Assembly: GCA_001632425.1 (NCBI GenBank)
Contig: KV425558.1
Location: forward strand, 331,508 to 360,067
DNA: 28,560 nucleotides
Source of the DNA: Neolentinus lepideus HHB14362 ss-1
Taxonomy: Eukaryota; Basidiomycota; Agaricomycetes; Gloeophyllales; Gloeophyllaceae
Reading direction: 5' to 3'
Shown: in pieces, positions 1,716 through 28,560 of the stretch
Layout: each line of letters opens with the position of its first letter
Numbering within the stretch: position 1 is the first letter of the stretch
Position numbers and translations under genes: made by a program
Notes under the pieces: model-generated
Databases searched by the model: none
Told to the model about the DNA's origin: nothing
Seen by the model: the letters and a program-made list of their open reading frames with translations, nothing else

Positions 1716-1805
1716 TGGTCGCGTAGGTGCAGATGGTGGCCGCGTAGGTGCAGATGGTGGTCGCATTGGTACAGACGGTGGCCGCATAGGTGCAGATGGT
1801 GGCCG
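1716..1805 (-). repeat. 21-bp coding tandem repeat (RPPSAP[M/T])
   Basis: About four near-identical 21-bp units encode the heptad RPPSAPT / RPPSAPM / RPPSVPM on the minus strand, inside the large exon of the accessory gene. More diverged RPPS / RLPS / RPTS copies follow upstream to about 1880. The repeats give a low-complexity, Pro/Ser-rich linker. The TGA at 1883-1881 falls on an Arg position of this RPPS register. Confidence 0.85.
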
Positions 1806-3091: not shown

Positions 3092-3120
3092 CCACGACCA
3101 CGACCACGACCACGACCACG
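3092..3120 (-). repeat. 6-bp microsatellite coding for an RGRG tract
   Basis: Five consecutive copies of a ccacga unit (plus strand) read on the minus strand as alternating Arg-Gly. In the accessory gene this makes an RG-rich stretch followed by GHSSGGSRASLPAW. RG tracts often bind nucleic acid; that role is only a possibility here. Confidence 0.8.
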
Positions 3121-4936: not shown

Positions 4937-4961
4937 CTGAGGAACAAAGAATTGGACTTAC

Positions 4962-8569: not shown

Positions 8570-10029
8570 ACCCAGTGTCAGGCTTTGTACGACATAACAG
8601 CAGGCGAGTGAGCATGTCGCAAAAGCGGGGTAAACCGTGACCTGTATTTTGTGACAATACTGTGTCACATTTACCTCAGTCAGTGTCCAAAGCCTTTCGG
8701 ATGATATTCTAAGCTCCAACTGATGTACCAGGATAATCCAGTAGTGCAATGCTATCGATTCAGAAGGAAAAATGGAGCGCCGGATCGATATGTATAATAC
8801 TACGTAGCGCAACAGCTCGAACGTGACATGTGACATGATCACGGTGGAAGTGCGCTGCCCATGTAGTTCGCGATCGCGATCGGGTACTAGATCTCAGGCA
8901 GATCTCGCAGAAGTTCACAAAGCAGCTGGTGGATAAGCGAGCCGATAAACGTGTCGCTTAGAGGCGGATGTTCGGTATGCACGAGGCCTCTGGGGTCTAT
9001 TTTAGTGATAGATTAATGGCCCCGGAAGGCCCTTCGGAGTTTGAAACCTCGTTGCCAAAGGTGTACAAAGCCTTGAAGTGAAACTCAAACTCCGACTCAA
9101 TCTGGCAACGAACGCAAACGAAAGGGCGTGCGTTCGTTCGCAGCATTTTCGACCATCTTTGCATAACGAACGAACCCAACAGTTAAGGAATTGAGCACCC
9201 CTCGTACCTTCACTGCTTTTGGAGCGTCCAGTACTTGTCATCGATGCATCATCAATCTGTCAATAAAACTTGGATGGCCGTCAGAACTATAACTCATCTG
9301 CCACCATTACTCGGATGCGGACCAGGCCTGAAATCCAAAGATGACCTCTGACCTTTGGAGTCGGCGGATGGAGAACTTGAATCACGGCGTGCAAATAGAT
9401 TTTGATGGGCTACTTTGCGCTGCGAGATCCATTAGGTCCCCGGGTTTAGGGAGATTTCAGTATTCATGTTGACACAGGTTTGATACTTATCTCGGATACG
9501 ATTGTTCCTGACGGGCTTTAGCTAATTAGCCGACTATTCGGTATTGTCCTATACTGCGTGTGGTGTCGCTCCTCATGTGCTCTGTGAGTCCGGTCCTCAG
9601 ATTCACTGAGGACAGCTTTTAGGGTCGACCCACCCTGTTTTCATTCATTTCGGCATGTCCAGCTGATAACAATCAATATTAAATCATTCTTCTGTGACTT
9701 GGGCGCAAACTTGGTACTGTTCGTGGAGGTATTCTGACGTTGGGTGCTGTTCAACTGTCAAGAGTTTACACAGACTAACGAATCCGTCCACCAGAAACAC
9801 GCTTTCATCCATCATAATACATTTCATATGCCATCGAACAACCTACGAGATTGAAATTGAGTGGAAATGCGGAGAACAGTTCAGCATGCTACATTATTGG
9901 TCTCGAGTACCCACAGGTTCACGCCTGATTAGAACTACGACTTCCTTCACAGTGCTTACTGTCAAACTTCATTATTTCGACTCGCATATAACAATCCGCC
10001 GGGCTTCGTGTCCCCCGCAAACCAAAAAT
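8570..10029. other. Intergenic, no gene recognised
   Basis: No ORF here shows family-like sequence. It should contain the promoter side of the KDZ transposase, probably the right end of that transposon, and the upstream region of the 7-TM gene. A 9-nt inverted repeat (aacgaacgc at 9107-9115 and its complement at 9130-9138) and a CGATCG-rich stretch near 8868-8881 are visible, without a clear function. Confidence 0.6.
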
Positions 10030-11347
10030 ATGGAGGGTGGGATCTCCCTTGCCGAAGCTGTGATTCTCTCCTTGTCTCTGGAGAGCATACTTTACGGTGC
10101 GCTAGCTCTTGCAATGTTACAGCTCCATGAAAGGTTAACTGTTTTGTCTGAATCAACGTATAGGTGCTTCCGTGTGCATGTTCGGTGCTACTCTATGGGT
10201 TCTCTGCTACAAGCATGCATCGCCGCGTACGACCCGCTTTATGATAATCGCGGCTTGCGCATTGTTTCTCTTCAGTACTATGGTGCGTAGTCGTATTTTT
10301 AACTGTTACAAGATAGTTTTCGAGTCGCAGCGCCCATTCGTCCATGAAGCATGTGTCCACAGATATAGCACGCCTGATCATCGCATTTGTGCATATCGGG
10401 TCTACGAACCCTGGTGGCATCGAACTTTGGCTCGGCAGAGTTTCACAAAAGACATATATGCTTAAAACCGCCTTCTACATTCTTCAGACACTGACCGGAG
10501 ACGCCGTAATTGCAAGTAATACCCCTGTTCTTTCGACATTCTACTATTCTGAAGCAGGTTATAGATTTACCGTTGTCACATGGTGTACCGCTCGTATTGG
10601 ATCATTCTCGGGCCCTTCATCTTGTGGTGCAGCGTCGTCGGTGAGTTGACATATCCTTATATTTATGATATACGGACGTCAATCACACATCACCTGCACA
10701 GCCATGGGAAGTGCTGTTTTGTATACTTTCGCTACCACCAGTACAAATGTTTTCGCTCGAAGGACCACAATATGGGTCTCCTCATTTTGGGGTTCAACAC
10801 TGGCAACAAATCTAACTTCCACCAGTGAGTTTCTGTTTGGTTCTCGTGGGGATGAAAGTAATTGACACTGTAAGCAGTTCTGCTGGCCTATCGGATATGG
10901 AGGGTTGACCGCAGTGTGGCTGAAACACGCACCAATTCCTCGCTGAGGGGGGTGGTGCGAGTGGTCCTGGATGCCGGCGCCTTGTATTCAGTCACTCTAC
11001 TAAGTGCGCTGATACCCTTCATCTGCAAGTCCGAGGGACAGTACGTCGTGTTGGACATGGTAAATTCAAATCTGTCTGCGCACCCAGGTTGAAAGTTTGA
11101 ATCGTTGCCGTCGCAGATAACGCCAATTATCTCGATTGCGTTCTACATGGTTCTCATTCGAGTGGGACTCGCTAACGGCTCGGCGCCGCTCTCGTCGTCG
11201 GCCAACCGGAGTAGAGGGTCCACGGCTCCGACTATGCACAACCACTATTCTATGAGACCTCTGGAAGTGCATATTTCACAGCTGATGGAGACCGACCAGC
11301 GCGGAACTGGTCGTTCCGACTCTTCGGTACTTGACAAGAGTGTTTAA
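10030..11347 (+). CDS. Seven-helix membrane protein of a basidiomycete-type family
   Basis: Seven exons give about 318 residues: 10030-10115, 10180-10282, 10350-10505, 10565-10640, 10702-10824, 10878-11059 and 11117-11347 (TAA). Introns are 53-67 nt. Helices can be read in order: AEAVILSLSLESILYGAL; FMIIAACALFLFSTM; a helix with YILQTLTGDA leading into IYRC; YWIILGPFILWCSVV; STLATNLTSTILLAYRIW; DAGALYSVTLLSALIPFICK; and TPIISIAFYMVLIRVGLA. A short Ser-rich cytosolic-type tail follows. The pattern, including GDA..IYRC and GALYSVTLL, matches unnamed 7-TM proteins common in Agaricomycetes; ligand and role are unknown. Oddity: intron 1 (10116-10179) must end in CAT instead of CAG to keep frame, whereas the AG at 10162-10163 would lead to a stop at 10290. 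The gene may therefore be damaged, or the base misread. The donor of intron 3 (10506) is chosen for frame. Confidence 0.75.
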
Positions 11348-12219
11348 ACTTGGGCTTTCTAGTGCAAGGCTCCGTTTTGTGCACCGCATTCGTGAGTGTG
11401 TCGAGTGCCTTTGTACAACCCATGTATATCATGATGAGAGTGGGTCATTTCTTGCTGTAACGTTCTCATAATAATAATCATTCCACAACGTCGGGAGATT
11501 TGCGACACTCTACATCTATTCTACGTTATTCAAATGCCCCAAATGACTCTATATTATTAATGACTTGTGCCGTCAGTAGAGCCGACTGTCCTTCGGCAGT
11601 ATGAACGTGAAGCAAAAATCAATGCGGTAAGACTATAGACGTCATGGGCTCTGTAGTCTTGTCCAGTTCGATGGAAACTATAAGAAGAATAGGTTGTATA
11701 GAGGTCGTTTCGTCATCTATCACCAGGCAGCAAGCTGCGAATTGTCTCTATACTGTCCAGCATCACGTCGAACTTTTATAGTGCCTTCAGTCTGCAGAGC
11801 AAGCCCGTGGCACTGTCCCAGCGTTGCCATCGATGGAGATGAGTCCAAGACGACGACGAAGAAACGCCTGTGAACCAGAATTACGTCGGGTCTATTGTGG
11901 TGGTACCAGTAGCTCCGATCTCTGGCTGTACACTCAGGCCCAAGGTCAGCTTCAGGCTATGTAATCGGATGATCGAGCATATCAAAGACTGCGTGCTCAG
12001 ACACCTTAAGCTGATATAGCGACAATAAATAGAAGAGTATCAGGAACGTGGCGTGCTATCAAATTGCAACAATAGGTGATGCTGTGATAGACCGTGCGAG
12101 TGGCTGAGGAAAGTCGGCTTGCAGAGGCAAGCCCGTCCGATCGCATCGGACGAAAACACCGTGGGAACACCGCCACCGCTCTCCCTCCAGACGTCTCACT
12201 AGCACTAGTGACATACACC
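11348..12219. other. Intergenic, no gene recognised
   Basis: This lies between two plus-strand genes. I see no conserved coding segment, tRNA or repeat. It should hold the 3' UTR of the 7-TM gene and the promoter of COX20. The open frame that extends upstream of the COX20 ATG (from 12094) looks like leader sequence. Confidence 0.55.
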
Positions 12220-12843
12220 ATGTCTGACTCTTCTTCATCATCATCCTCGTCGTCCTCCCAACAAAGCGACCAGCGCGACGCCCTCGCGCCGCTCCCCGGC
12301 TCGTCCAAGCGACCCGTGTACAAAGCCGAGACGACGGGCAGTTACTGGGGCGATGTGAAAGCGGCTGCCTCGGTGAGCACTCTTTTCTTCTTCCCACTCA
12401 TCCCTTGTATGCTGACGCCCCTCTGCAAGTAAGCGCCTCTCCCCGGACGACTTCTCGCACATCGGCGAGATGCCCTGCGCGCGGAGCAGCCTCCTGAACG
12501 GCATCGCGGCCGGCGCGGGCGTGGGGATCGTGCGGGGTATCGGTGCAGGTGCGCTTGCCATCCCTAATATGCTGGGAGTCTGTGGGTGCTGACGAGACGG
12601 CAGGCCCGTTCGTGGCGAGCAACTGGGCGGTGGGGACGTTCATGCTGATTTCCATCGGGACGTGGTGTGTGCGATATCTCTTTGACCGGGTTGGGTCTTT
12701 TTCAGTGCTTTACTCCCAGGACGGTGTGTCAGCGGAACCGCAATGAAGAGCGCAGAAGGATCCAGCAGGTCATTGAGGAAATGCCGAGGCGGTACGTGGT
12801 GAAGAAGGAGGGGGAGGAAGGCACCGAGGGCAAGGCACCGTGA
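12220..12843 (+). CDS. COX20: Cytochrome c oxidase assembly protein COX20
   Basis: Four exons (12220-12372, 12434-12548, 12604-12664, 12720-12843) give 150 residues, typical for the family. Introns are 61, 55 and 55 nt, GT-AG, and all phases agree. COX20 is a mitochondrial inner-membrane chaperone for the Cox2 subunit. Family marks are the conserved IGEMPCARSSLL entry, the Gly-rich first membrane helix NGIAAGAGVGIVRGIGAG, the second helix NWAVGTFMLISIGTW, and the charged tail CQRNRNEERRRIQQVIEEMP. The N-terminus has a ten-Ser run after MSD and no obvious presequence. The start ATG sits in the context cacaccATG. The third intron ends at the second of two nearby AG sites (12718-12719), which keeps the conserved GTW..CQRN frame. 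The sequence appears intact and CpG-rich, unlike the transposons around it. Confidence 0.93.
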
Positions 12844-13118
12844 TGCTGTGCTGAATTGTCGATGTTGCTACAAACGCGTCATGCTGCGAGCGACTCCAGG
12901 TTTCGTGGTGAGCCAAGGACAGGGCTATCTTCTATCGATACAGCATAACTTTTGTACCATACAACACGCCCCTACTCCCAAAAATTACTAAAACCCGTGT
13001 ATTTTACTCTTCTGCCCCAAAACCCTCTAATGAAAGCGAAATACAAAACAGCAATATATAAATAACATACGAATATATTGAAATGAGATTCGTTTAGGCG
13101 TCGGTGCGGTGAACGCGG

Positions 13119-13690
13119 TCACATGTACTTGACGTTCGACGTCTCCACGAGCTGTGGGTCATCCTGCAGGTAACAGATATATTCATGTCAGAGGGGGTAA
13201 AGAAGGGGAAAGGGAGACGTACTTTGAACTTGTCGTGGAACTCCTGGAACCCGCCCCGGAGGACGTAGACCTGGTGCTGCCTGTCTGCGCTAGAGGCTTG
13301 CAGGGCGTCGCGGACTTCCGAGTATATCTGGACAGGATGGAATAGTCAGTATACGGGTGCAGACTACAGGGAATCCGTGAACGCACTCGTGCAGCTTTAG
13401 GTCCTCTCTGCTGGGACAACGCGCAGTGAAACACGACCGTCGGCACGTCCTTTGTCTTCTCGACCAGCTCATCGACTTTGGATAGGAACATGTGCGACGG
13501 CGAGTTGTGCGCGCCGACGATGTTTCCGCCCACCCAGTCGTCGTCGCGCACGTCAACGATGACGTAGTCTTTCGTCGGGACTGCGGGGGATTTGATGAGT
13601 GAGGCGAGTTCCTGCGCGTAGGGATTGGTATTTGAGTGTTAGCCGAGAACAAAGGAAAGAACGTACATCGGCAGAAATGTACTTGACCAT
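13119..13690 (-). CDS. Small rhodanese/Cdc25-type (Acr2/Ych1-like) protein
   Basis: Four exons on the minus strand (13690-13667, 13611-13387, 13327-13223, 13163-13119) give 132 residues. Introns are 55, 59 and 59 nt and preserve frame. It is a single rhodanese domain: N-terminal VKYISADELASLI, the DVRDDDWVGGNI strand-turn with GAHNSPS, then the active-site loop FHCALSQQRGPKAAR. That loop is a C-x5-R pocket as in Cdc25 phosphatases and Acr2/Ych1 proteins, rather than the shorter loop of sulfurtransferases. Closing motifs are VYVLRGGFQEF and a short acidic tail. Likely activity is phosphatase or arsenate reductase type; the sequence alone cannot separate these. It is transcribed away from the HNH gene across about 310 bp and converges with COX20. 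It appears intact. Confidence 0.92.
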
Positions 13691-14004
13691 GGCGATGGCG
13701 CGGATGTACAGTTGGGAGGTGGAGGTGGAGGTAGAGGACAAGGCACGGCTGCTTATAAGTGGCCGTAGCGAGACTCGACTGCGTGCACCGCCTCTGATTC
13801 CCAAAGGCGAGAGCATACACTGAGTGACCGGGATATAAATACCTCCCGGTGGAGGTGAGTCGAGAATGTCGTAGGTAAAGCCCGGGGAAATCGCGATGAC
13901 CTCATTCCGATCACGACCCCTGCCGTCCAATCAGCGTGCGACTCGGTGTCTTCCGGTCATTCTTCTGGAATCCGCGGGAATCGGAATTCCTTAACTTCAG
14001 CACC
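13691..14004. promoter_or_regulatory. Divergent promoter interval
   Basis: This 314-bp gap separates the divergent starts of the rhodanese gene (-) and the HNH gene (+), so it must hold both promoters. No TATA box is obvious. A GA/GT-rich stretch at 13714-13735 (gaggtggaggtggaggtag) reads as a polypyrimidine tract just upstream of the rhodanese start, common in fungal promoters. Confidence 0.4.
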
Positions 14005-14965
14005 ATGTCTCGTCGCCGGTCCAGCTCAATCAGCCTGATTTGCAGTATCATTTCTTGTTCTCATGACGAATATTTGGCGGCCTACGAAGCAGCGGACCCT
14101 TCTACGGACGAGCTATACTCTGATGCACGGATGCACGGATGCACATTATTCAACGGCAGCGAGAACGCTCACATGCAAGACAGTCGATCTCGGCCAAACT
14201 CCCGACTTGGATGAGACCGCTCTGAAAATCTACAAGGCTAATCGTGCCGAGCAATGCAAGCTGCGAGACAGCGTGAGTTATGATGTTGGTTTCACTGGCT
14301 CTGCTAAGAATTTGTAGGTTGGAAGACGAGAAAATTACAGATGTCCCATTACTGGTATTTTGGACTTGTCCTATGCCGAAAAGTTGAAGGCTGCTAGAAA
14401 ACGCTCTCGAAGTCTCCGGCAGTCGGTGTGCTGCAAGCTGCTCACATCATCCCTTTCTCTTTTAATAAGTTAGTTGCTCGAGCGACAGTTTAGTACGTAT
14501 GAGACAACTATTACTTTCCTGATCCTTGGACTTATATCTGAGACCGCAACATATCCCAGTACCTGGGATATGTTGCAAAGTTGGACATCGAAGGTCTTGC
14601 TGGAGCAAGGATCAATCCTCCCAGGAACGCTATCCTCCTGGCTGCTCACGTCCACAACTACTTGAGACGTTTCAAGATCTATTTCGAAGCTGTGAGTTCC
14701 CCTTCGCGATGATCCACGGCCTAATAAGACTGACGTTTAGTCAGCACCCAGACGTACCGCACAAGTTACCACGCCCGAAGTAGTTCTCACGTCTACAGAG
14801 GGGGACGTCGACGTCACGTTCCGGTCTGTAGCGGAGTCGGGCCTGGAGCCTCCCGACCCCGAGCTCCTCAGAATTCACGTTGCGCTCGCCAAGATTCTGC
14901 ATGCTTGTGGTGCTGCTGAACATTACGAACGACGAAGAGAGCGGTGCCTCCGTGCAGCCGGGTGA
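14005..14965 (+). pseudogene. HNH-endonuclease family protein, frame-broken
   Basis: Start ATG at 14005 (context cagcaccATG) reads MSRRRSSSISLI, a common opening of basidiomycete HNH proteins. Recognisable later pieces are DLGQTPDLDETALKIYKANR, RRENYRCPITGI (zinc/HNH entry), LQAAHIIPFSFNK (first His), STWDMLQSW, GLAGARINPPRNAI (Asn), AAHVHNYLRRFKIYF (last His), and a C-terminus with EPPDPELLRIHVALAKIL, ending at TGA 14963-14965. Plausible introns are 14275-14318, 14469-14542 and 14692-14739. Frame changes occur at the 8-bp repeat 14122-14144, between the Cys motif and AHIIPFS (about 14395), and after MLQSW (about 14585). No single set of GT-AG introns rescues all three. HNH proteins cut nucleic acid; this copy probably makes none. 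Confidence 0.75.
14122..14144 (+). repeat. 8-bp tandem repeat (gatgcacg, 2.9 copies)
   Basis: Three near-complete copies of gatgcacg stand head to tail inside the HNH gene. Eight bases is not a multiple of three, so gain or loss of one unit changes frame. The family-like frame does switch here. Confidence 0.85.
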
Positions 14966-16083
14966 TCATGCATCACTTCTGATGGCAAGGTTGACGGCTC
15001 TAGTCTATTGAAGGAACTTCTAAGCCTGCGGCCAGCTCTAGAACGTGAAGTAAGGAATCTGTGATCACAGACCATCGAGATATAGCGTGTAAGTAGTGAG
15101 CGCTGAGCTAGTGTCATTATGGAAATAGTGTACGTGGCATGCAGATGTTTATGGCAGGAGTCCATAACCTAACACAAACACGAGGATCATAACAATGTCT
15201 CTTGGCGTTGGGTAAAATCTCGAGATGCTGCTGTCTCGAGTCAGGCTTGAAGCTTGAAGCTTGAGTGCTGACTAGTGTTGGACTCTTCTTTCACCCTCCA
15301 GGCGATCCGGAATGCCTCTTGACATCAAAAAGTAAGCTGTTCCTTTTGAAAGAAAGATCCTGACGGTCGCTGCGACCTGACCCAGTACTCCGAGAGATGC
15401 AAAGCCGCCACCAAACAACACGAGTCCTTACTACAAATGAGCATGGTGCCGAATTTAGTCAGTGTGGGGGCATCAATCCCGAATTACCGTGGAGTCGTAT
15501 ATTATTTATAGTGCCGGATCTGAATATATTGGCTTTGCTTTGGGTACAACTAGTTATCCTGACTCCATAGTAGCCTCTGCTTTACCATTTTGTTATTGAA
15601 GGAGTTACTTAGGACTCGCCAGACTACCATGCACAGCGGTGGCCCACCCCACAAGTAAAAATTGCCACAGCACCCGAAAACCTTTCAAGTATAACCACAC
15701 TTCGGGAGTTGCACTCTTTTAGGCCTAGCAAAAGGTTGAACAAAAGGGATATACAAAATATATTCTATTTCAAAGCATTCTGGGACTGAGAAAAGTATAT
15801 ATTTAGGCAGTGTTCTGCAGGTTTGTATGTATATTATCTATTTCATTACCTTTCAATACTTATATATAAACCAAATGCGAAATGGATAGGCAAAGGTTTC
15901 TACAGCGAATCATTTAGTGAGTGAATAAATTGAATCTTTTAATTCAGCCTTAAATGGAAACTGCAACATCTACTTTTGCACAGGCTACTTGAACAAAAAA
16001 TAATGTAATATAATATTTTATCTTGAAGTGTCATGCAAAAGGGCATGCAAAAGAATATATTCAGGATACAGGCAAAAGGTACT
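14966..16083. other. AT-rich intergenic stretch, no gene recognised
   Basis: There is no convincing coding segment on either strand. A short run of gcttgaa units lies at about 15245-15262. From about 15700 the sequence is strongly AT-rich with many tatat/tataa strings. Part of it may belong to the inverted-repeat element that follows. Confidence 0.55.
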
Positions 16084-16225: not shown

Positions 16226-16294
16226 CCAGTAATTGTGGTGGCATGGTATGTGTGGCCCAGTACCAGTATATGTGGTCCAGTAGATGGCCCAGCA
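16226..16294 (+). repeat. Left terminal inverted repeat (69 bp)
   Basis: Pairs with 17965-18033 on the opposite strand. The four mismatches are all transitions of the CpG-to-TpG/CpA kind. Confidence 0.85.
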
Positions 16295-17964: not shown

Positions 17965-18033
17965 TGCTGGGCCATCTACTGGACCACATATACTGGTACC
18001 GGGCCACACATACTGTGCCACCACAATTACCGG
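17965..18033 (-). repeat. Right terminal inverted repeat (69 bp), cut at the LTR
   Basis: Inverted copy of 16226-16294. Its outer end directly abuts the TG of the 5' LTR at 18034. Confidence 0.85.
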
Positions 18034-19346
18034 TGATAGGCCCTGTTGACTTCTGACCCCAGAAAACACGATTTAGGGTGATTCTGCATGCTTTGTGGGA
18101 ATGGCGACTTAGCGACTCAATAGCGCACTGTCGGTACTCTGTGCACTAGCGACCCTACACACCAGCGACAAGGCTCTCGGCTCCTTGGTGCACTTAGGAT
18201 GGCTCCTTGGTAGCTCGGACATTGAATGTCATTCAGTCGAGTCATCGGCATTTCGGCATGCATTGGCCGGCATTCTTACTGTGGTCTGAACCGAGGCGGT
18301 GTCTCAGGGTGCCTGTCCATATGGCGTACAGCCCGCCGTCGCTTCGGATCAGTGCTAGTTCTATTGGTGTGACTTTCCTTATGCATGCAGTGCGCATCGA
18401 CACATGGCATGACCACAGCTATCACGACACCGCCGCACCACAGAGTGGCCCCACCCCTTATCCCTCTTTTGGCAGTATCGCGCTAGCATCGGCAGCATAG
18501 CCCATCTCCGGATCATCGAAGAGGTGCACTCTAACGCAAAGTCAAGATGCACCCGACTGGCTCCCATCTGCGGGATGGCGTGCATGCTAAAGTTGGTCGC
18601 ACAGGGTATTGGTCAAAGAGCACATGTGGATTAGGAGCAAGGCAGTACAGGTCGTATGGATGAGAGGCTGAGCAGAGGCACAACTCGCGGTAGTAGGTAG
18701 ATAGGATCAGACACAGAGTAGTCGCTCTCTTGTATTTAAGCCATTACTCTACTGTTTGTAAAACAAGTTATCTTCACCACACTCTTCAGATTTCAATCTT
18801 GCATCAGAGCTTCTTCTAAAGTCCATCTTGCGACTCGTGTTTAGGTACTCTTGCATACCTCTGACTTCACCCAGAGATAGTGACAGAGTACACCAGTGTA
18901 GCGTCGCTGTTCATAAGCCGTCCCTTATATGTTCCTTTCTCCTAGACAGCCCCGTGCACTGTAATGTAGTGCTAACCAGAGTCCATATATGTTTGAGTTA
19001 GAGATAGCGACTACAAGTAGTGTGCCTCTATAGAGCATTGAAGACCACATAGTGCCGAGCAGGAGGAGCATCGTATAGCGCCTATACAGCGCCGTGCACA
19101 TAGCGCAACATAGCGCATAGCATTGCCTTCACTCTGCAGACTGCTGCCGAGTAGCGACTTGGCGCCAACCTACCTTTAGCCCCAACTATACGTCTCACCT
19201 ACACCCATCCCCTCTGAACTATATTACCCTTCACTACCCTGGGCCTTGCAGCCATCTGACACCAAGGGCTTTGGTGTTTGCTTTGTGGTTGTGTCTACAC
19301 TTTAGGTCTCATTTCCGCGGGTTTCGTCGTGTGTCTGTGCATATCA
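18034..19346 (+). repeat. 5' LTR (about 1,313 bp)
   Basis: The start (TGATAGG) is fixed by alignment to the 3' copy at 28088. The end is set at the CA of catatca (19345-19346), just before the TGG of the candidate primer-binding site. Only the first 398 bp can be compared with the 3' copy: 364 positions are identical, with no gaps. U3 would be about 730 bp, with a TATA-like box near 18733. Confidence 0.8.
18733..18740 (+). promoter_or_regulatory. TATA-like box in the 5' LTR
   Basis: tatttaag lies in the middle of the LTR, far upstream of gag, and would place transcript initiation around 18765. It is the best TATA-like match I see in the LTR, and it is absent from the truncated 3' LTR. Confidence 0.5.
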
Positions 19347-19349
19347 TTT

Positions 19350-19368
19350 TGGAGCCCACCACGAGGGG
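19350..19368 (+). other. Candidate primer-binding site
   Basis: TGGAGCCCACCACGAGGGG begins three bases after the LTR end with the TGG expected to pair with a tRNA 3' CCA. The complement would give an acceptor strand GGTGGGC. I do not assign the tRNA; a tRNA beginning GCCCACC would be expected. Confidence 0.55.
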
Positions 19369-19755
19369 AGATTTCACGAGACATCAGGGCACAATCAAGA
19401 TGATAGCGATCTCCATAGAGAGCTCAAACAGCACCAGGAACGTTTCCTAGACCTTGTTGAAAGGGAGCACATTAATAGCGAAGCAATCAAAGAAGTCTAC
19501 GACGCAGCGGTAGCTATCGCCAATTGTCTCTATCTGGGTCATTTCGCCCAAACACCATCTGACATCCCTCACAGTGACTCAGAATCCTCTGAGGAGGTAC
19601 CCCTGGCTTCACTATTTCCAAGGCGCCGATCAGCTCACATAGCTGCGCTATCTGCACCTCCTTCACAAACTGCTTCACCTCTGCCCATCTCCCCTATCAA
19701 TGAACATCCAGTCCTCCCACCATCCACTCCAGAAACCATCTCTGAGACCAACTCA

Positions 19756-20607
19756 ATGGCAGATGTCAAAGCTCTCCCATCACGTCATGACAAGGCAGCG
19801 CTGGTATTCGATCCCAAAAACCCGCGATCGCTACTGTGCTACTTGGAAGATCTAGAGGATCTCTTCAAGGTGCACCCTACCCTGATAATGAACGAAGCAG
19901 ACAAGAAGCACACCGCCATCAAATATGTACCTATGCACGAAGAAGAAATGTGGAAAGGGTTGCCGGAATATGAGGATGCAGCCAAGACATGCGAGGAGTT
20001 TGTCACGGCGCTCAAAACACTATACCCAGCGGTGCGTGAAGACCAGCACTATTCTGTGGGTGACATGGATAGACTGGTTGGGGAGCGCGTACAAATCGGT
20101 ATCCACAATTTGGTGGACCTATCAACCTTCTACCGCGAGTTCCTCCTCATCACATGCTTCCTCTGTTGCAGGGACCTTATCTCAGAGCACAAGCAGAACC
20201 GCGCTTTCCAGCACACCTTCAGCCAAGACTTGTGGACCAAGGTGTACATGCGCCTCCAGATAAAGAACCCTGAACAAGCGGCAGATACTCCTTACGGCGT
20301 CGCTTCAGTATTCGAGGCTGCATCATTCTTTCTTGCTGGGACGCCCACTACCACAATAATGGAAGCAAAGGCAGAGACTCCAGAAGGAAAGGTCAAAGTA
20401 GAGGAGTATATGTCACTGGTTGACATCATCACGAAAGCAGTCTCCCAGTTGCTCACACCTACATTAGCGGCGATGGCGCAGGGAAGCACGATGGCCGCAA
20501 ATAGCGCCCCAGCGTGTGTGATGCCTACAGCGCCCTACCAGTGCCACTACTGCGGCGCAAATGATCATTCCATATGGCGCTGCCCCAAAGTTGATGAAGA
20601 CCAGTGA
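19756..20607 (+). CDS. gag: Retrotransposon Gag (capsid and CCHC nucleocapsid)
   Basis: The frame from the first ATG gives 283 residues. The capsid-like helical region carries LVFDPKNPRSLLCYLEDLEDLF and the usual Trp/Leu pattern, as in Ty3-type Gag. Near the end is a zinc knuckle C263-x2-C266-x4-H271-x4-C276 (CHYCGANDHSIWRC) that binds RNA. The same frame is open for 132 codons upstream of this ATG, back to 19360 inside the primer-binding site. That extra part looks coding (acidic, Ser/Pro-rich), so the true N-terminus may have lost its ATG. The TGA at 20605-20607 follows the knuckle by eight codons, and the same frame continues directly into the next block. It may be a CGA-to-TGA mutation or, less likely, a readthrough stop. 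Confidence 0.85.
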   Translation: MADVKALPSRHDKAALVFDPKNPRSLLCYLEDLEDLFKVHPTLIMNEADKKHTAIKYVPMHEEEMWKGLPEYEDAAKTCEEFVTALKTLYPAVREDQHYSVGDMDRLVGERVQIGIHNLVDLSTFYREFLLITCFLCCRDLISEHKQNRAFQHTFSQDLWTKVYMRLQIKNPEQAADTPYGVASVFEAASFFLAGTPTTTIMEAKAETPEGKVKVEEYMSLVDIITKAVSQLLTPTLAAMAQGSTMAANSAPACVMPTAPYQCHYCGANDHSIWRCPKVDEDQ

Positions 20608-21612
20608 GCGGGACAAGTGATGAGGAACATAGAGGGAAAGGTGGTGCTACCATCGGGAATAATGGTGCCACAGAATCTCCCAGGCACAAATATGCGCAAA
20701 AGGATTATGGAGTGGCATAGGTGCAACCCAAGTCAAGTGGCAGCAAACATCATCGAGCAGATGATCTACGAGGACGTCAAGACAATCAGCGCCCCTTGTG
20801 ACATATTCCAATTAGACGTCAACGAGCACATCGAATCACTAGAGAAGGAGCTATTCGCTCTCAGAAAGTGCCCAACCTTCGACAGGGTACAGGTCCCGCC
20901 TCACCCAGACAAAGGCAAGGCGCCCACGCTACCTATCAATGCGACTCCCTCTGCACTGGTGGTACCTGAGAAAACAACCGCACCAGCACCAGGACCCTCG
21001 ACGCCCAGCAAACTGCACAATCCACTGCCTCATATGCCAAATGCACCCATCCATCTGTACGCCCAAGCTCGCGACATCAATCGCCCTCATCAACCTGCAC
21101 CCAAAACAGTCCGCTTCGATATGTCACAAGAGAAAGTAGTGGAAGCAGAGCAAGCACGCTCTAAGGAGCCAGCATATCATGTGCAAGCCCCAGTTTATGA
21201 TCCAGTCATCTTGAAGAACATCTTTCAGCGGTTGCTATCTACCCCCTACGTGTCGCTCACCTCCCAGGAACTACTTGCTATCTCGCCAGAAGTTAGGAAC
21301 AAATACTGCGACCTCATTACACCCAAGCATGTCCCTCCTACTCCAGAGCACATACAAGCGACACTAGAGGAGGTGGCCGACGAGGAGCTCACCTTGCCCA
21401 AAACATTCCTATGCTCTGATCTCTTAACATATGGCAAAATGGAGGAGCACGGCGAGATCATCGTACCTGACCCTGTGGACCAATACTTCAAAGGGTTAGC
21501 ACCAGGTGAAATACCGCTACATTTCCATGTAGCGAGGGAGTCGCTAGCGCTGCGCTCTATAGTCGGGTTGGTAGATAACAAGGAGAAGTTTGAGGCAATC
21601 CTTGACCCGGTT
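20608..21612 (+). pseudogene. Gag-Pol linker between nucleocapsid and protease
   Basis: This continues the gag frame after the TGA at 20605-20607. It opens with RNIEGKVVLPSGIMVP and MEWHRCNPSQVA, segments typical of this basidiomycete Gypsy group. A Pro/Ala-rich spacer follows, then helical sequence up to the strand FEAILDP that begins the aspartic protease. At about 21611 the frame breaks, and the uninterrupted reading continues into nonsense until 21729. With the TGA removed, gag and this block would be one polyprotein. Confidence 0.75.
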
Positions 21613-21977
21613 CCCAAATCATCGCTATGTCGGAAGGAGTGTGCTTGTCTCTTGGGGTCACTTTTGATCCTACGGTTAGGGTGCAGATGCAGTCTGCAAA
21701 CAAAACGGTTGACCTCACTCTCAGTTTAGCGTGCAACGTCCCGTTCCAGGCAGGGTCTATCACATTGTATCTCCAAATGCATGTGGTACGCGACCCTGCC
21801 TACGACATCCTACTGGGCCAGCCTTTCGATGTCTTGACGCAAAGCAACATTTGGAATTTCTTTAACAAGACGCAGACCATCACCATCACTGATCTGAATA
21901 GCGACCTAGTAGCAACAATACCAATGTACCCGCAAGGCAAGCCGTGCTTCCTTGGCAGATCCTTTCATGGTGAGTGA
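21585..21977 (+). pseudogene. Retrotransposon aspartic protease, frame-broken at the active site
   Basis: From about 21615 the protease continues in another frame: IIAMSEGVCLSLGVTFDP, VQMQSANKTVDLTLS, and the closing YDILLGQPFDVL, the ILG motif of retroviral-type proteases. The active-site strand ILDP is in the upstream frame. Its continuation after the catalytic Asp is out of frame by one base, within cccggttccc around 21609-21613, so the Asp-containing loop is not encoded whole. A second one-base change near 21950 returns to the original frame at ADPFMVSEES. The enzyme would normally cut the polyprotein. Programmed shifting is unlikely because I see no slippery heptamer in the right frame at the break. 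Confidence 0.8.
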
Positions 21978-23766
21978 AGAGTCCCCGCCCCATGAAGAGG
22001 GTAGTCCGTTTGACTGGGTCGCAGTCATCATAGAGGCAGCCGCCACCCCCAACGCTTTCCACATCTCATCGCTATGCAAAATCAACTTAGATGAAAGTGC
22101 AAGTGAGCTCCCAGATGGACTCCTCCACTCCATATACCTTTCTGCTTGCGACTCTCCATCTGTCTCTCAGGTTCTTACACAGTCTTCGGGTTCTTATTGG
22201 GTTCCAACAGCAGAAAATATCAAATTGCAAAAACATTCCACTGACTCTCTTGTGTCAGTCCTAGCAGCAATGAAAAAGAAGTACAAACCGGTAGCGCAGA
22301 AGGTGCGCATGGTACCAGCGATGCTACCAAAAGAATATCACATCATACGAAACATCACCGGTGACCCTTTAGCAGACATGCCGACTCTCAGTCTGACCCC
22401 ACAAGCATTCAAACCTACAGGGTGCTATACTGCAGACTGGCGCAAGGTGCTACACAAAGCACATCCCGAAGGATTCCTTACCAGTGATGAGCTCGCACTA
22501 CTAGACGACTTCATGAGCAAGCAGAACGAAGCCTTCACGTGGAACAATGATGAGCGCGGTTGCTTCAAGAAGGAATTCTTCCCTCCCATCGATTTCCCAG
22601 TACTCCCGCACATGCCGTGGATCCAGTGCAACATACCAATACCACCCGGAATCTACCCCGAAGTGTGCGCCGTTATCAAGCGCAAGATAGCGGCGGGAGT
22701 CTATGAACCATCCAATGCCTCATACAGGTCACGCTGGTTTTGCGTCATCAAGAAAGATGGCAAATCTCTCCATTTAGTCCACAGTCTAGAGCCCCTCAAT
22801 GCCATCACCATACAACACTCAGGCATCGTCCCCATCCCTGATCATATGGCTGAACAGTTTGCAAAGCACGCATGCAGCGCTATGTTAGACTTATATGTGG
22901 GCTACGACGAAAGAGAAATAGCGGAATCCTCGCGTGACCTAACTACCTTCCAGATGCCCTTCGGTGCTATGCGACTAGTCACTCTTCCTATGGGCTGGAG
23001 CAATTCAGTCCCCATCTTCCATGATGATGTTACCGCTATCCTACAACCCAAGATACCGGAGCATACCATTCCTTACATCGATGATGTTCCAGTGAAGGGG
23101 CCGCCAATGCGCTATGAGCAGCCAGACAGATCATACCCCAACATCCATCGGTTCATGTGGGAGCACTTTCAGACGCTCAATAGAGTCATACAGCGCATGC
23201 GCTATTGCGGCGGTACCTTCTCTGGATTGAAATTGACAGTATGCAGCCCAGAGATCATTGTTATAGGGCATCGCTGCACATACGAAGGTCGGATACCAGA
23301 CGAGTCAAAGGTCGCGGTCATTAGAAATTGGGGCCCTTGCAAAACGATATCCGAAGTGCGCACCTTCTTAGGGATGGTTGGCGTGCTAAGGATCTTTATC
23401 AAGAACTTTGGACATCGTGCAGACGCGCTCACTAGACTAACGCGCAAGGACATCCCTTTCGAGTGGGGCCCCGAACAGGAGCTAGCGCAAGCAGACCTCA
23501 AGCAGGTGCTATTAGAGTCACCAGCGCTATGTCCCATCGACTATATGTCCTCTTTACCTGTCATCCTAGCCGTGGACACCTCCTATATTGTGGTAGGTTA
23601 CTACCTCTGCCAACAAGCAGCGGCGGACACCAAGAATCGCAACTATAGTCGGTTTGGCTCCATCATGCTCAACGACCGCAAGCGCCGCTTCTCACAGCCA
23701 AAGCTCAAGATCTACAGTCTATTCAGGAGTCTATGCACACTACGTCTCTACCTGCTCGGCATCTGA
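21952..23766 (+). pseudogene. pol: Reverse transcriptase and RNase H
   Basis: An open stretch of 604 residues, counted from 21952 at the frame re-entry. RT fingers include IPPGIYPEVCAVIKRKI and RSRWFCVIKKDGKSL. Catalytic Asp313 is in MLDLYVGYDE, the PFGAMRLVTLPMGWSN block follows, and the YIDD box is at 375-378 (Asp377, Asp378). The thumb/connection contains WGPCKTISEVRTFLGMVGVLR. RNase H begins at AVDTSYIVVGYYL (Asp542). The acidic position expected in the following helix reads KLKIYSLFRSL, with Lys where related elements have Glu (from my knowledge of the family). TGA at 23764-23766 interrupts the RNase H; the same frame continues with NLVIKVDAQYIKGMLQNPDI, the usual next segment. RT copies the RNA genome into DNA. 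Confidence 0.88.
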
Positions 23767-25545
23767 AATCTAGTCATCAAAGTCGATGCGCAATATATCA
23801 AGGGCATGCTACAGAACCCCGACATAGCACCATCCGCTAGCATCAATTGGTGGATTGTCTCCATCCTTACATTCCACTTCAAACTCGTTCATGTGCCAGG
23901 AGTAAAGCATGGACCCGATGGCTTGTCGCGTCATCCACCCCAACCAGATGACCCACCGCAAGATGAAGACCCCGAGTTTGACGACTGGATAGACCGGCTC
24001 CACAGCTTCATCCACTTCATCAACCCCATTGCCTATCTCGAATCACCCTCTAACCTAGCGGTATTCACGCAAGACCTTGTAGAAGAAGCTGACAAACAGT
24101 CAAACGCCAATAGCGACAAAGAACAAGATAGCGATGCGGTGCGTCTTACCTACACAGACTTCCCAAGGACGGATAGCGCACGGCGACTCGACCAGCGATT
24201 GGCACTTCTACCCGACTGGTTTGAGACGCTAACAAGGCCAGATGAAATAGTGGAAGACAAGTACATCAGCTTCATCAAGTATGCGACGCAGTTCTTTGTT
24301 AGTGGAGGAAGACTTTGGAAGAAGGATGCGCAAGGTGCGCACCAGCTGGTTCTCTTAGGTGAAGTGCGACTCGAGGCCCTCCATGCCTGCCACGATTGTG
24401 TAGGCCACTGTGGTATCTACGCGACCAAAGCACTGCTACTCGAACGATTCTGGTGGCCATTCTGTGTCCAAGATGCTGCATGGTATGTCAAGAGTTGCCA
24501 CCTATGCCAGATGCGACAGTCCCAATTAGTGCTCATCCCGCCCACTGTCGCTACTCCGGTGCTGCTATTTTCCAAAGTCCATATTGACACCATGCACCTT
24601 CCAGTCTCAGACAGTTTTCATTATATCGTCCAAGCACGATGCGTCTTGACATTCTATCCAGAAGCCAAGAAGTTGCGATCAGAGAATGCGCAATCGATAG
24701 GCGATTGGATCTATGAAGACATCCTCTGTCGATGGGGTGGACTTGCAGAAATAGTCACGGACAACGGCAAGCCCTTCATTGCAGCTATGGAGTATTTGAG
24801 CAAGAAGTTCGGTATACGACACATCCAGATTAGTGGTTACAACTCGAGGGCAAATGGTGTTGTGGAGCGCCCCCACTTCGACATGCGCCAAGCGCTATTC
24901 AAGGCAGCAGATGGTGACTCTAAGAAGTGGTCGCAGGTATTCCATTCGGTCATCTGGTCAGAGTGCATCACAATCAGGCGGTGCATGGGATGTTCGCCCT
25001 ACTTTGCAGTAACCGGCGTGAACCCCCTCATTCCTCTCGATATCGTCAAAGCGACCTACCTCCAACCGCCACCCGATTCCATCCTATCCACTACCGACCT
25101 CATAATGCGACGCGCTATTGCGCTACAGAAATGGGATGAACAAGTCGAGCGCCTTCATCACCATGTTCTCCAACATCGAGTAGAAGCAGCAAGGCGATTC
25201 AAAAAAGAACACATGCATACGATATGCGATTTCGACTTCAAACGAGGCGACCTAGTACTCATGCGCAATACTGCCATCAAAAAGTCGCTGAACTGCAAGA
25301 TGCACCCGTGCTATCTCGGACCACTCATTGTTGTGTCACGCAATCATGGCAGCGCCTACATCCTCGCAGAACTAGATGATACCCTGTTCAACAGACCTAC
25401 GGCAGCCTTTCGCATTATTCCCTATCTAGCACGCAAGACAATTCCGCTACCCGATGACTTCACAGATGTCGGCGACGACCAAGTCCATCGCATGGAGGAG
25501 CTAGATGACCATGGCAATGAGGATGCACTGGCCGTGGATGATTAA
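23767..25545 (+). CDS. pol: RNase H C-terminus and integrase
   Basis: Same frame as the RT, after the TGA. Residues counted from the Met at 23806: RNase H tail with LVHVPGVKHGPDGLSRHP; integrase zinc domain His196-x4-His201 (HDCVGH) with Cys231-x2-Cys234 (CHLC); catalytic Asp261 (HIDTMHL), Asp319 (IVTDNGKPF) and Glu354 (ANGVVERPH), giving D-x57-D-x34-E. A GPY/F-like module (YLGPLIVVSRN) and an acidic end follow. TAA at 25543-25545. No chromodomain is visible. The integrase itself looks uninterrupted, but its expression depends on passing the upstream TGA and frame breaks. Confidence 0.88.
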   Translation, partial: NLVIKVDAQYIKGMLQNPDIAPSASINWWIVSILTFHFKLVHVPGVKHGPDGLSRHPPQPDDPPQDEDPEFDDWIDRLHSFIHFINPIAYLESPSNLAVFTQDLVEEADKQSNANSDKEQDSDAVRLTYTDFPRTDSARRLDQRLALLPDWFETLTRPDEIVEDKYISFIKYATQFFVSGGRLWKKDAQGAHQLVLLGEVRLEALHACHDCVGHCGIYATKALLLERFWWPFCVQDAAWYVKSCHLCQMRQSQLVLIPPTVATPVLLFSKVHIDTMHLPVSDSFHYIVQARCVLTFYPEAKKLRSENAQSIGDWIYEDILCRWGGLAEIVTDNGKPFIAAMEYLSKKFGIRHIQISGYNSRANGVVERPHFDMRQALFKAADGDSKKWSQVFHSVIWSECITIRRCMGCSPYFAVTGVNPLIPLDIVKATYLQPPPDSILSTTDLIMRRAIALQKWDEQVERLHHHVLQHRVEAARRFKKEHMHTICDFDFKRGDLVLMRNTAIKKSLNCKMHPCYLGPLIVVSRNHGSAYILAELDDTLFNRPTAAFRIIPYLARKTIPLPDDFTDVGDDQVHRMEELDDHGNEDALAVDD

Positions 25546-25675
25546 GTTCATTTAATTTCTTATAGTCCCTTTCATTACAAGTTTATTATTCAGTTGATCA
25601 TTTATTACTTCCTTATATTTCAAACCAGACGCAACTCTGCCATTCATTTGCTAGTGCAACCCCTCCTCTCATGAA

Positions 25676-25719
25676 GAACTGAGGACAGTCCCCATTTTAA
25701 AGTCTGGGGGAGGAGGGAA
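25676..25719 (+). other. Internal polypurine-tract-like sequence
   Basis: gaactgaggacagt and ttttaaagtc precede a 14-base purine run (25706-25719). The same arrangement occurs at 28050-28087 directly before the 3' LTR. Here it is 130 bp after the integrase stop, where a Gypsy element lacking an accessory gene would be expected to end. Confidence 0.7.
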
Positions 25720-25925
25720 CACCGTTCAACCAGTGTGCACATACACTTTTTCATTTTTTACCTTATTTTAGTTCCTTCATATGCACTATTTTGCGCTATC
25801 TGTGCTATTACCCGTTTTACCACAACAGCACTACCCGATCAAGGACAGAAGAAAGTCAAAGATCACGCAAGAATGAGTGCGCGCACAAGACCGAGCGATT
25901 TTATTTACAAAACAAGATTTCAATT

Positions 25926-27982
25926 CTACAACATAGAAGGGACTACAGGAGAGGGCACATATTTAGCTATGAGTGCATTGGCCTCCTCCTCCGACAAATC
26001 CACCAATGATGATGAGTCATCGCTCTCATCCTCATCAACCACCAGTGCACAATCGCACTCATCCCCGCTATCCTCCCACTCGGCATCTTCAGGCTCGCCA
26101 TAGGAGCCACGGTCAGTACTCTCCGCGCTACTACTTCGAGGACGCCGAATTGCATCAGTCGGTCCAAGATGAACTAATGAGTGCACGTACTCGCACTCAT
26201 CGTCATTCAGCCCCCAACCCTCCTCCTCTGCTTCCTCCTCCTCGCACCACTTGCCAAAGTCCTCCCCGCCATCTTCGCCAGTTGGCTCATGGTCACGTGC
26301 TGCCTCGGAGCGCTCTTCAGTCTCACTGGTGTGCCCATAGACCAGATAGTCCTCAAGCGGCAACAAGGGTGGTCCAGGAAGTAGCGCTCCGCTAGGTGAA
26401 GCGTCAGATAGGCCGTGGATCGGAACAAACGACCGCGCTGGAGCTCCCGAGCAGTAGAGGAGTGATCTGAAAAGCAAGCATCAGTCTAAAAACAGGCAAA
26501 GAAAAGAGCATACTGCGTACCTTGGTCGATAGTGCGCATTAGTGCTTCCACCATCTCTCGAAACTCTGTGGCCTGCGCATCGAGCGCGCAACGGAAGGCC
26601 TGGTTCTCATATTGCTGCACAGCGACCCACGCTTGGAAAACCTGGCCATTGTGTTCAAGCGCGCCGATGCACGCTTCCAGATGCGCTTGGCATGCCTCCA
26701 TGGCTGTGACTCACTCCTGCAGAGAGTGGTCTTCAGATGCAGAAGGAGCGGAGGGAGGAGGAGGAGGCTGGGTCGGTATCAATGCCACCACGCCGAGGAG
26801 TTGAGAAGGGTCGTTGGCATCAAACACTTGACTGCCAAATTCTAGGACACCTAGTCAGCTGGGAGCAAGTAGCGATGGGAAATAGCGAGACTTACCTGGA
26901 ACCTGGAAGCGCATGCGTTTGAAGGGTGGCATCCCTTCTGCTTCATCACGCGGTCTTTTCTCTCCAACCGGAGTACTTTTTGATGGTCCCGCCTCCGCGT
27001 TATCCACTGCAGGCACCACCCACCGAGAATGAGACCACGTAGCGGTCACAGCAGGATCTAGCGCCAGCAGACCACTGCCTGGAGACCCGCTTGGCAGCCG
27101 CGACGCTACCTCAGGTGACAAGGGGGGCGCATCGTCCCCTTCATCAACTGCAAACAAAAAGATTAGAATGGCAAGAGCAGATAGAAACTGGCGACACTTA
27201 CCAATCTCTACATGTGTCCTTCGAACATGTGCTATCGATCCAGATGGTGCCGAATGGTGCTCCGCATCCACCCAGAGATGCTCAGCATTGGAGACAATGC
27301 CCGCGGAAAGCGAGCACCCCTTCTGCGAGAGCTTGCAGGAATAGCAAGCGGTTGCAGGCATAGCATCAAGGCGTGAATAACACGAGTGACCTTTGGCGAC
27401 ACAGCAGTCGCACTAGCACACAAGCAAGGGTCAGCGCTGGAAAAGCGAAGATTGGTATTGAAGAACTTACTGGCCGTTCATTGCGCAGGCCCACCTCTAT
27501 CTGCTGCGGCGACTTTTTAGCACGAAGGCGTGGTACCTTCTCGGGGCGGGACTCCTCGACAGCTTTTGCCTTACCCTTCCCTTTCACCGTACGGGTTGTG
27601 ACCGGAGCCACAACTTCTTCCACCTCCTCAACGAGCAGTAACTCCTCGGCCGCTGGCGGCACCTCCTCAGTCGATGGCGGCATCACAATCAGAGACCACG
27701 GAAGGCCAGGGAGGTGTCGGTTCAGCTCCAACATGAGGGAAGCGGGGAGGAGCTCCAGGCATAGCATGGAGTACTCCCACTCCCACGCTGCACATATTGC
27801 CGCGCTACTGTCAATAGGCTAGAAAAAGCCATTAACACTAATACGACGACACAAGTACGAGCGAAACTTACTACCAAGCTGACCAAAGCGTAGGCCACTG
27901 CCAGTTCTTCAAAATCGCGACGCACTAGAGTGTCAACCACCTCTTGAATAGCAGCGCGAAGGGAAGAAGCAGCAGCAGACAT
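25926..27982 (-). CDS. Antisense, spliced accessory gene with Zn(II)2Cys6-type motif (probably damaged)
   Basis: Minus-strand exons 27982-27872, 27818-27471, 27412-27202, 27147-26896 and 26841 to about 26521 join through GT-AG introns of 53, 58, 54 and 54 nt with all phases preserved. Exon 1 opens MSAAASSLRAAIQEVVDTL. Exon 2 ends with a basic KGKGKAKAVEESRP stretch. Exon 3 starts CDCCVAKGHSC and contains CYSCKLSQKGC: C-x2-C-x6-C-x11-C-x2-C-x6-C, the spacing of fungal binuclear zinc clusters. Exon 4 has a second basic patch (EKRPRDEAEGMPPFKRMRF). TGA at 26713-26711 would end the product at about 350 residues. The same frame continues with a helical, coiled-coil-like segment (MEACQAHLEACIGALE). 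A fifth intron (26467-26520 or 26467-26513) leads to a last exon that, in one frame, encodes a strongly acidic tail ending at 25926. Function unknown; a DNA-binding regulator is a hypothesis. Confidence 0.72.
27202..27412 (-). other. Exon carrying the Zn2Cys6-like motif
   Basis: The first codon after the splice acceptor is Cys. Counting from it, Cys lie at 1, 4, 11, 23, 26 and 33 (with an extra Cys at 3). The established consensus for Gal4-type clusters is C-x2-C-x6-C-x5-12-C-x2-C-x6-8-C. The extra Cys at 3 is encoded TGC; CGC (Arg, giving the common CDRC) is one C-to-T step away. Confidence 0.8.
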
Positions 27983-28049
27983 AGCAAAAAGCAGGGTTGG
28001 GCAAACTGGAGCGAAGAGCGACAACAAGAGCAAAGGAGCGATGGCTAGT

Positions 28050-28087
28050 GAACTGAGGACAGTTCGTTTTTAAAGTCCAGGGGAGGG
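28050..28087 (+). other. Polypurine tract and its leader at the 3' LTR
   Basis: gaactgaggacagt, then tttttaaagtc, then a nine-base purine run (28079-28087) directly abut the TG of the 3' LTR. This is the expected plus-strand primer site. Its upstream sequence is duplicated at 25676-25717. Confidence 0.75.
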
Positions 28088-28485
28088 TGATAGGCCCCAT
28101 TGACTTCTGACCCCAGAAAATGCGATTTAGGGCGATTCCGCATGCTTCATGGGAACGGCGACTTAGCAACTCAATAGCGCACTGTCGGTACTCTGTGCAC
28201 TAGCGACCCTACACACCAGCGACAAGGCTCTCGGCTCCTCGGCGCACTTAGGACGGCTCCTCAGTAGCTCGGACATTGAACGTCATTCAGTCGAGTCATT
28301 GGCATTTCGGCATGCGTCGGCCGGCGTTCTTACTGCGGTCTGAACGGAGGCGGTGTCTCGGGGTGCCTTTCCATATGGCGTACAGCCCGCCGTTGCTTCG
28401 GATCAGCGCTAGTTCTATTGGCGCGACTTTCCTTATGCGTGCAGTGTGCATCGACACATGGCGCGACCACGGCTATCACAACACC
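28088..28485 (+). repeat. 3' LTR, first 398 bp only
   Basis: Aligns without gaps to 18034-18431 (364/398 identical). Similarity ends abruptly after aacacc at 28485, before the TATA-like box. The following 75 bp are AT-rich and unlike the LTR. Either the LTR is deleted here or another insertion interrupts it. Confidence 0.85.
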
Positions 28486-28560
28486 TAATGCTGTAGTATT
28501 AATGTATTACATGTCTAATATTTTAACAAACCCTTATGCAATACCCAGTAATGTTTTAAG
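28486..28560. other. AT-rich sequence of unknown origin beyond the LTR break
   Basis: It matches neither the rest of the 5' LTR nor the inverted-repeat element. It is too short to classify. Confidence 0.5.

Follow-up and report, generated by a model that had tools for sequence, protein, structure and literature searches.

Introduction

An antisense gene of a fungal long terminal repeat (LTR) retrotransposon, brtn of the Boty-like elements of Botrytis cinerea, was reportedly described by Zhao et al. in 2011. A review from 2020 (PMC7264820) places brtn among the aORF-3R, which in plant Ty3/Gypsy elements (Grande gene23, RIRE2, Retand, PvRetro13) it describes as antisense, conserved and present in most copies. 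The gene23 protein is nuclear and the function of the class is given there as unknown, with an accessory-protein-like role, as in retroviruses, being suggested and a role of the antisense RNA being discussed. In human T-cell leukaemia virus type 1 (HTLV-1), as outlined in PMC3185765, the antisense gene HBZ is initiated in the 3' LTR and its product, a factor of DNA-binding type, represses the sense transcription of its own virus. Here we analysed a 28,560-nt stretch of DNA from the basidiomycete Neolentinus lepideus HHB14362 ss-1 (G000:C8:331508-360067, of a genome of 33.8 Mb in 168 contigs), hereafter the window, which contains a Ty3/Gypsy LTR retrotransposon with a gene of several exons on the strand opposite to gag-pol, and we find that this gene is, to judge from its copies, a real, spliced and selected gene that belongs to the Ty3/Gypsy lineage.

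Like the aORF-3R as that review describes them, the N. lepideus gene is an antisense open reading frame (ORF) between pol and the 3' LTR that is conserved and present in most copies, but it differs from them in having five introns and a six-cysteine cluster, the account of aORF-3R consulted there mentioning no zinc cluster. With brtn it shares being an antisense gene of a fungal LTR retrotransposon, whereas the gag-pol of Boty is reported to include a chromodomain and Pfam finds none in the N. lepideus element. HBZ is a basic leucine zipper (bZIP) protein and not a zinc-cluster protein, and the likeness to it, as far as the cited account goes, is one of layout and role only, with no homology being claimed. 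An earlier sequence-only reading of the window had held that a retroelement with such a gene would be unusual; carrying an antisense gene is not unusual in itself, however, since plants and Botrytis have elements with one at this position, according to the same review. Among the titles and abstracts listed for searches of the open-licence literature, we found none on an LTR element with a zinc-cluster gene and none on a permuted Zn2Cys6 domain. The class of antisense genes is known, and a spliced, multi-intron form with an apparently half-swapped cluster, occurring in two families, would be a new variant of it.

A spliced antisense gene between integrase and the 3' LTR

The antisense gene occupies positions 27982 to 25926 of the minus strand, between the integrase ORF, which ends at 25545, and the 3' LTR, and has six exons and five introns. 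Exon 1 (27872..27982) opens with the ATG at 27982-27980, exon 2 (27471..27818) encodes a basic KGKGKAKA patch, exon 3 (27202..27412) starts with a Cys codon and encodes the six-cysteine cluster C-x2-C-x6-C-x11-C-x2-C-x6-C, and exon 4 (26896..27147) encodes a second basic patch, KRPRD...FKRMR. Exon 5 (26521..26841) encodes a long helix in intact copies, and exon 6 (25926..26466) an acidic tail. Downstream of the stop, an AATAAA (25900..25905, minus strand) can be read that might serve as a poly(A) signal.

The sequence-only reading had described five exons joined through four introns in perfect phase. Its placement of the gene, antisense to gag-pol and between integrase and the 3' LTR, is upheld, as are its four introns (27871-27819, 27470-27413, 27201-27148 and 26895-26842), which are all GT-AG, have lengths of 53-58 nt and keep the reading frame across exons 1-4, and the Cys codon that opens the third exon and completes the motif. 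It had missed a fifth intron (26520-26467) and with it the sixth exon, and the last exon that it took to be open is interrupted in the window copy, where the phase is no longer perfect beyond exon 4. This copy is not intact, since an in-frame TGA in exon 5 (26711..26713, minus strand) breaks it, and the acidic tail then lies out of the frame of the joined exon 6, which is changed relative to other copies; one other copy is open across 588 amino acids. Splicing of the window reproduces the deposited N. lepideus protein P0017 exactly. The deposited model of the window locus has 509 amino acids; it uses a 248-nt splice (26714-26467) that skips the TGA and most of exon 5 and additionally removes 26190-26131.

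These last 60 nt (26131-26190) are a possible sixth intron. Among the 21 deposited proteins that reach them, 14 skip them and continue into the acidic tail, 3 leave otherwise and 4 read through.

The layout of the protein consists of basic patches, the six-cysteine cluster, a long helix and an acidic tail, with helix and tail being intact in other copies. AlphaFold places the long helix at residues 344-426 of protein P0002, with predicted local distance difference test (pLDDT) block values of 82-85 over residues 351-410, and we infer from this model that the helix forms a coiled coil.

Copies in the genome, introns and selection

A 1-kb probe matched at least 20 places in the genome, and the adjoining kilobase at least 24. 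Comparisons between family-1 copies, that is, copies of the kind found in the window, were made on 14 of these 20 places, selected because most of the gene is present there, and in 12 of the 14 the 3' LTR directly adjoins the gene. Donor GT was kept at 66 of 67 and acceptor AG at 67 of 67 intron splice sites (133 of 134 overall), compared with a conservation of 65% for GT and 74% for AG dinucleotides within exons. By intron, both were kept in 13/13 copies for intron 1 (27819..27871, phase 0), GT in 12/13 and AG in 13/13 for intron 2 (27413..27470, phase 0, directly before the first Cys), both in 14/14 for intron 3 (27148..27201) and intron 4 (26842..26895), and both in 13/13 of the analysed copies that cover intron 5 (26467..26520). 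All five introns, which are 50-59 nt long, vary in length between copies by numbers that are not multiples of three. Together, the kept splice sites and the out-of-frame length variation indicate that the five introns are spliceosomal.

The ratio of nonsynonymous to synonymous divergence (dN/dS) between copies had a median of 0.25 (range 0.19-0.51; 91 pairs), and is thus not near 1, while the two shifted frames of the same 91 pairs gave 0.98 and 1.15; the calculation excluded the first part of exon 6 and any codon that contains a stop or a gap. Divergence at the three codon positions was 0.121, 0.105 and 0.245, and 0.251 in the introns, so that the third position matches the introns. Median dN and dS were 0.164 and 0.782 for exon 1, and 0.069 and 0.416 for exon 3, which encodes the cysteine cluster. 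The integrase of the same elements had a dN/dS of 0.30 (6 pairs; shifted frames 0.88 and 0.87), and the antisense gene therefore appears to be about as constrained as the integrase. All six cysteines were kept in 11 of the 14 copies, the other three having a deletion, a missing exon and an indel, respectively, and the exact six-cysteine spacing is present in 17 of 29 deposited proteins. As such, the comparison of copies clearly speaks for purifying selection on the antisense gene.

These results leave almost no room for the explanation that the gene consists of chance ORFs and chance splice sites, in favour of which the closed state of the first-proposed last exon in the window copy could be cited, as it is refuted by the copies, the intron conservation, the dN/dS values and the second family described below.

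A second Gypsy family and the spread of the gene

A genome search with the cysteine exon returned five matches with E above 0.001, four of which belong to a second, diverged family that occurs at nine places in the genome. At four of the nine, which are all the places where an integrase was detected, the family-2 gene lies antisense behind the integrase, as in family 1. Homologues in the same place and orientation, which the sequence-only reading had called for, thus exist not just among other copies of the Gypsy element but also in a second family. Exon structure was checked in seven copies, with loci L032 and L020 (truncated) dropped: four exons join and the total length is in frame, and the defects comprise one lost donor, one missing ATG and a single stop in each of four copies. 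As in family 1, one phase-0 intron follows exon 1 and another immediately precedes the first Cys. The family-2 dN/dS (28 pairs) was 0.27 for exon 1, 0.24 for exon 2 and 0.20 for the cysteine exon, with 0.86-3.6 in shifted frames; for exon 3 the ratio did not discriminate between frames (0.35 in its own frame, the shift-2 column, versus 0.42 in another). For these values the tail, which aligned unreliably, and the row for all exons taken together were discarded, and L032, part of which is N and misaligned, was dropped.

When profiles of the two families were compared, only the cysteine cluster aligned (36 columns without a gap, 36% identity, E 4.3e-5, probability 69%), which suggests that the cluster is the best preserved module of the protein. 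Among 14 integrase matches with identities of 62% or more, 12 are followed, on the opposite strand, by the gene or by a piece of it; at C59:116128 extra sequence lies between integrase and antisense gene, and at C40:1526 the integrase is at the contig end and no gene was found. At four further integrase matches, which are partial or of greater distance, nothing convincingly resembled the gene of either family. Protein searches with the family-1 protein, the sensitivity of which is that of shared 5-residue words, found no relatives outside N. lepideus and returned 26, 29 and 22 proteins, all from this species; the searches with 26 and 29 proteins scored the approximately 8,000 candidates richest in such words. 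Similar cysteine-cluster proteins may be common in mushroom proteomes.

The six-cysteine cluster and the order of its halves

The Zn(II)2Cys6 pattern of fungal zinc clusters is C-x2-C-x6-C-x5-12-C-x2-C-x6-8-C, and the spacing in family 1 fits it. In family 2, single clusters matched the Pfam family Zn_clus (PF00172) in all eight copies, seven of them above the cut-off, each time with one half only. The matching part is the C-terminal half, which aligns to profile positions 1-14 to 1-18, that is, to the beginning of the profile. None of ten cysteine-preserving shuffles of the family-2 cluster matched. In a longer family-2 protein, the same C-terminal half scores 22.1 bits and no other domain is above cut-off. 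In family 1, it is the N-terminal half that aligns weakly, to profile positions 16 or 17 to 31 (7 of 9 copies).

When family-2 domains were doubled, so that the halves could be read in permuted order, a Zn_clus match ran across the join at 26.2-47.0 bits in six copies, and Gal4 scored 45.8. Doubled shuffles matched in seven of ten cases, two of them above cut-off, with a best score of 25.4 bits, which means that spacing alone accounts for part, but not all, of the family-2 score. These scans covered six of the eight family-2 clusters and five family-1 clusters. Thus, the halves of the cluster appear to be swapped relative to the Gal4-type order, as supported in family 2 with controls. If true, a DNA-binding domain that is common in fungi would here be arranged in an unusual way.

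The protein resembles Gal4-type PF00172 factors in its six cysteines, their compatible spacing and the profile match of the C-terminal half in family 2, and it is unlike them in the reversed half-motifs, the score of family 1 below the cut-off, its antisense position in a retroelement and the lack of any other domain above cut-off. The zinc-cluster regulator layout put forward by the sequence-only reading is thus retained for the spacing and, from other copies, for the helix and the acidic tail, and needs qualification in that family 1 stays below the Zn_clus cut-off and the halves of family 2 are reversed.

A search for other swapped clusters in the genome was unproductive, as 17 weak or partial matches out of 65 Zn_clus matches looked on translation like canonical halves or unrelated pieces. 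The six-cysteine pattern was absent from 18 genomic stretches, a weak test given that canonical clusters there, split by introns, were missed as well, and a PDB sequence search with the family-2 cluster gave no match.

Proposed role and alternative explanations

The layout of the protein, its constraint and its parallel to HBZ make it likeliest that the product is a nuclear regulator that binds DNA and is carried by the element, and we put the chances of this at about even. The gene would be expressed from a spliced antisense mRNA. Introns antisense to the genomic RNA are not removed by reverse transcription, and those of this gene would persist through retrotransposition, since the genomic RNA does not contain them as introns. 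The 588-amino-acid product, with an N-terminal helical region, basic patches resembling nuclear localisation signals and a zinc cluster of six cysteines with reversed halves, would be located in the nucleus and bind zinc and DNA, the long coiled coil would serve dimerisation, and the acidic tail might recruit the transcription machinery or compete with it. Most likely, the protein would serve to control either sense transcription of the element itself or the host silencing state, in the manner of HBZ. More tentatively, we speculate that the gene could be a fungal counterpart of HBZ, namely an antisense spliced regulator with a circularly permuted Zn2Cys6 cluster that acts in a sense/antisense switch at the LTRs. 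Were this the case, it would offer a biochemical handle on what the antisense accessory genes of Gypsy elements do. The six-cysteine cluster, being the sole part that can be aligned between families, predicts zinc-dependent DNA binding, and the many copies in one genome would allow selection and expression to be tested together.

A number of observations weigh against a regulator of this kind. Single family-1 clusters reach at most 15.3 bits against Zn_clus, the cut-off being 21, and the family-1 protein has no match above cut-off to any Pfam family. Nine of the 11 intact family-1 clusters were scanned in this way (the L005 cluster was included in the doubled-domain scan and L004 was left out), of which seven matched at 9.6-15.3 bits, one hit another family and that of the window copy gave no match. 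Doubled family-1 domains scored 15.7-16.8 bits in four cases, with none for the window copy, which is within the shuffle range, so the proposed half-swap in family 1 would follow from homology to family 2 only; even there, the weakest doubled copy (26.2 bits) is barely above the best shuffle (25.4 bits). The AlphaFold models are uninformative for the cluster, where the pLDDT averages about 30-55 per block. Neither CGG/CCG triplets nor CGG-N0-20-CCG pairs are enriched in the LTRs of the window beyond the expectation from dinucleotide shuffles. The gene is also not a constant companion of the element, as 12 of its 20 places are without a nearby integrase match, some of them being contig ends or truncated elements, and 8 have one, and in a third family (C59:105510) the integrase stop runs straight to the polypurine tract (PPT) without an antisense gene, family 3 being a single decayed copy in which loss cannot be separated from absence in the lineage. 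This patchy pairing of integrase and gene indicates that some branches of the Gypsy lineage acquired the gene or that others lost it. Finally, a core promoter of the antisense gene adjacent to the PPT was considered and rejected, since the CTGTCCTCAGT part of the block also stands beside the PPT of the gene-less family-3 element; the suggestion of the sequence-only reading that the LTR could drive the gene in reverse is likewise not supported.

The PPT of the window element (AAGTCCAGGGGAGGG; 28073..28087, plus strand, read from sequence) lies directly before the 3' LTR, and a TTAAA / ACTGTCCTCAGT block beside it is conserved between families 1 and 2. The succession of CTGAGGACAG and the PPT AGTCCAGGGGAGGG before the 3' LTR (28050-28087; L051:620-680) is similar in families 1 and 3, and CTGAGGACAGT also adjoins a PPT-like tract of family 2. 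As family 3 lacks the antisense gene, the shared block may be a longer form of the PPT or some other signal that acts in cis.

A different role would be that of an accessory factor of retrotransposition, which would use its zinc cluster as a tether and bind complementary DNA, integrase or chromatin for nuclear import or target-site choice. The integrase-like constraint, the presence of the gene beside 12 of 14 integrase matches of at least 62% identity, the basic patches and the long helix would all suit such a factor, and the review cited above (PMC7264820) mentions a suggested retroviral accessory-like role for aORF-3R. However, family 3 ends right after the integrase without the gene, even if this is a single decayed copy, and separate antisense expression would uncouple the protein from the particle. 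We regard this role as rather unlikely, though it is the main competitor to the nuclear regulator.

The intron-rich structure and zinc-cluster spacing would also be expected of a captured host zinc-cluster transcription factor gene carried as cargo. We consider this improbable, given that, with E allowed up to 10, the genome matches listed for the two clusters (24 for one and 17 for the other) all fall at family-1 or family-2 places, that the order of the halves differs from Gal4-type clusters, that the family-1 protein scores below every Pfam cut-off, and that the gene is common to two diverged families, which argues against a recent capture. It is more improbable still that the antisense RNA and not the protein is functional, for instance through double-stranded RNA that silences or limits the element; the gene does overlap the 3' part of the genomic RNA, and such a role is discussed for aORF-3R (PMC7264820), but a dN/dS of 0.25, frame-specific constraint and kept splice sites indicate a protein.

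The host element and its surroundings

The window element is a Ty3/Gypsy LTR retrotransposon, as defined by LTRs that flank gag, then reverse transcriptase and RNase H, then integrase. The 5' LTR (18034..18428, plus strand) begins with TGATAGG and the 3' LTR lies at 28088..28482 (plus strand); the aligned copies span 18032-18431 and 28086-28485, and the right edge of both is uncertain by a few bases. A gag-like ORF (19756..20607, plus strand) has a CX2CX4HX4C zinc knuckle at its end, read from the translation; a Pfam scan found nothing above cut-off in it, and it was assigned by position and zinc knuckle only. The first pol ORF (21952..23766, plus strand) encodes reverse transcriptase and RNase H (RT_RNaseH_2, 35.2 bits, cut-off 29.8; RVT_1, 17.5 bits, below the Pfam cut-off), and the second (23806..25545, plus strand) encodes the integrase (Integrase_H2C2, 54.5 bits, cut-off 25.5). 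We saw no target-site duplication flanking the LTRs of the window element.

The two LTRs are 91.5% identical over the aligned copies. Of 34 mismatches in 395 positions, 32 are transitions, and 24 differences are in CpG-type dinucleotides; the age of the element can therefore not be read from this divergence alone. The observed/expected ratio of CpG is 0.78 in the element (18034-28482) versus 0.90 in window positions 1-16000. Transitions and low CpG are consistent with methylation-driven decay of the element.

Just left of the 5' LTR, a 69-nt inverted repeat of 94% identity was found (16226-16294 and 17965-18033, with arms 1,670 nt apart), and a minus-strand ORF at 4447-4980 matches a Ulp1-type protease (Peptidase_C48, 25.3 bits, cut-off 20.7) and is possibly part of a DNA transposon. 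To the right of the 3' LTR, positions 28491-28560 belong to a sequence of 70-79 nt that recurs at the break points of other copies, abutting them at L006:883-952, L012:522-600 and L015:2297-2366, and that is also present at C12 (97%); possibly, this is where another transposon ends. At loci L009, L010, L012, L013 and L014, the 5' leader of the element (from window position 18432 to about 19346) continues past the gene-side LTR, as if tandem elements shared one LTR, and at several loci similarity to the window ends near 19346. At G000:C108:33708-34199, a family-1 integrase lies within an open frame of 1,218 amino acids, which may point to relatively recent activity of some elements in N. lepideus.
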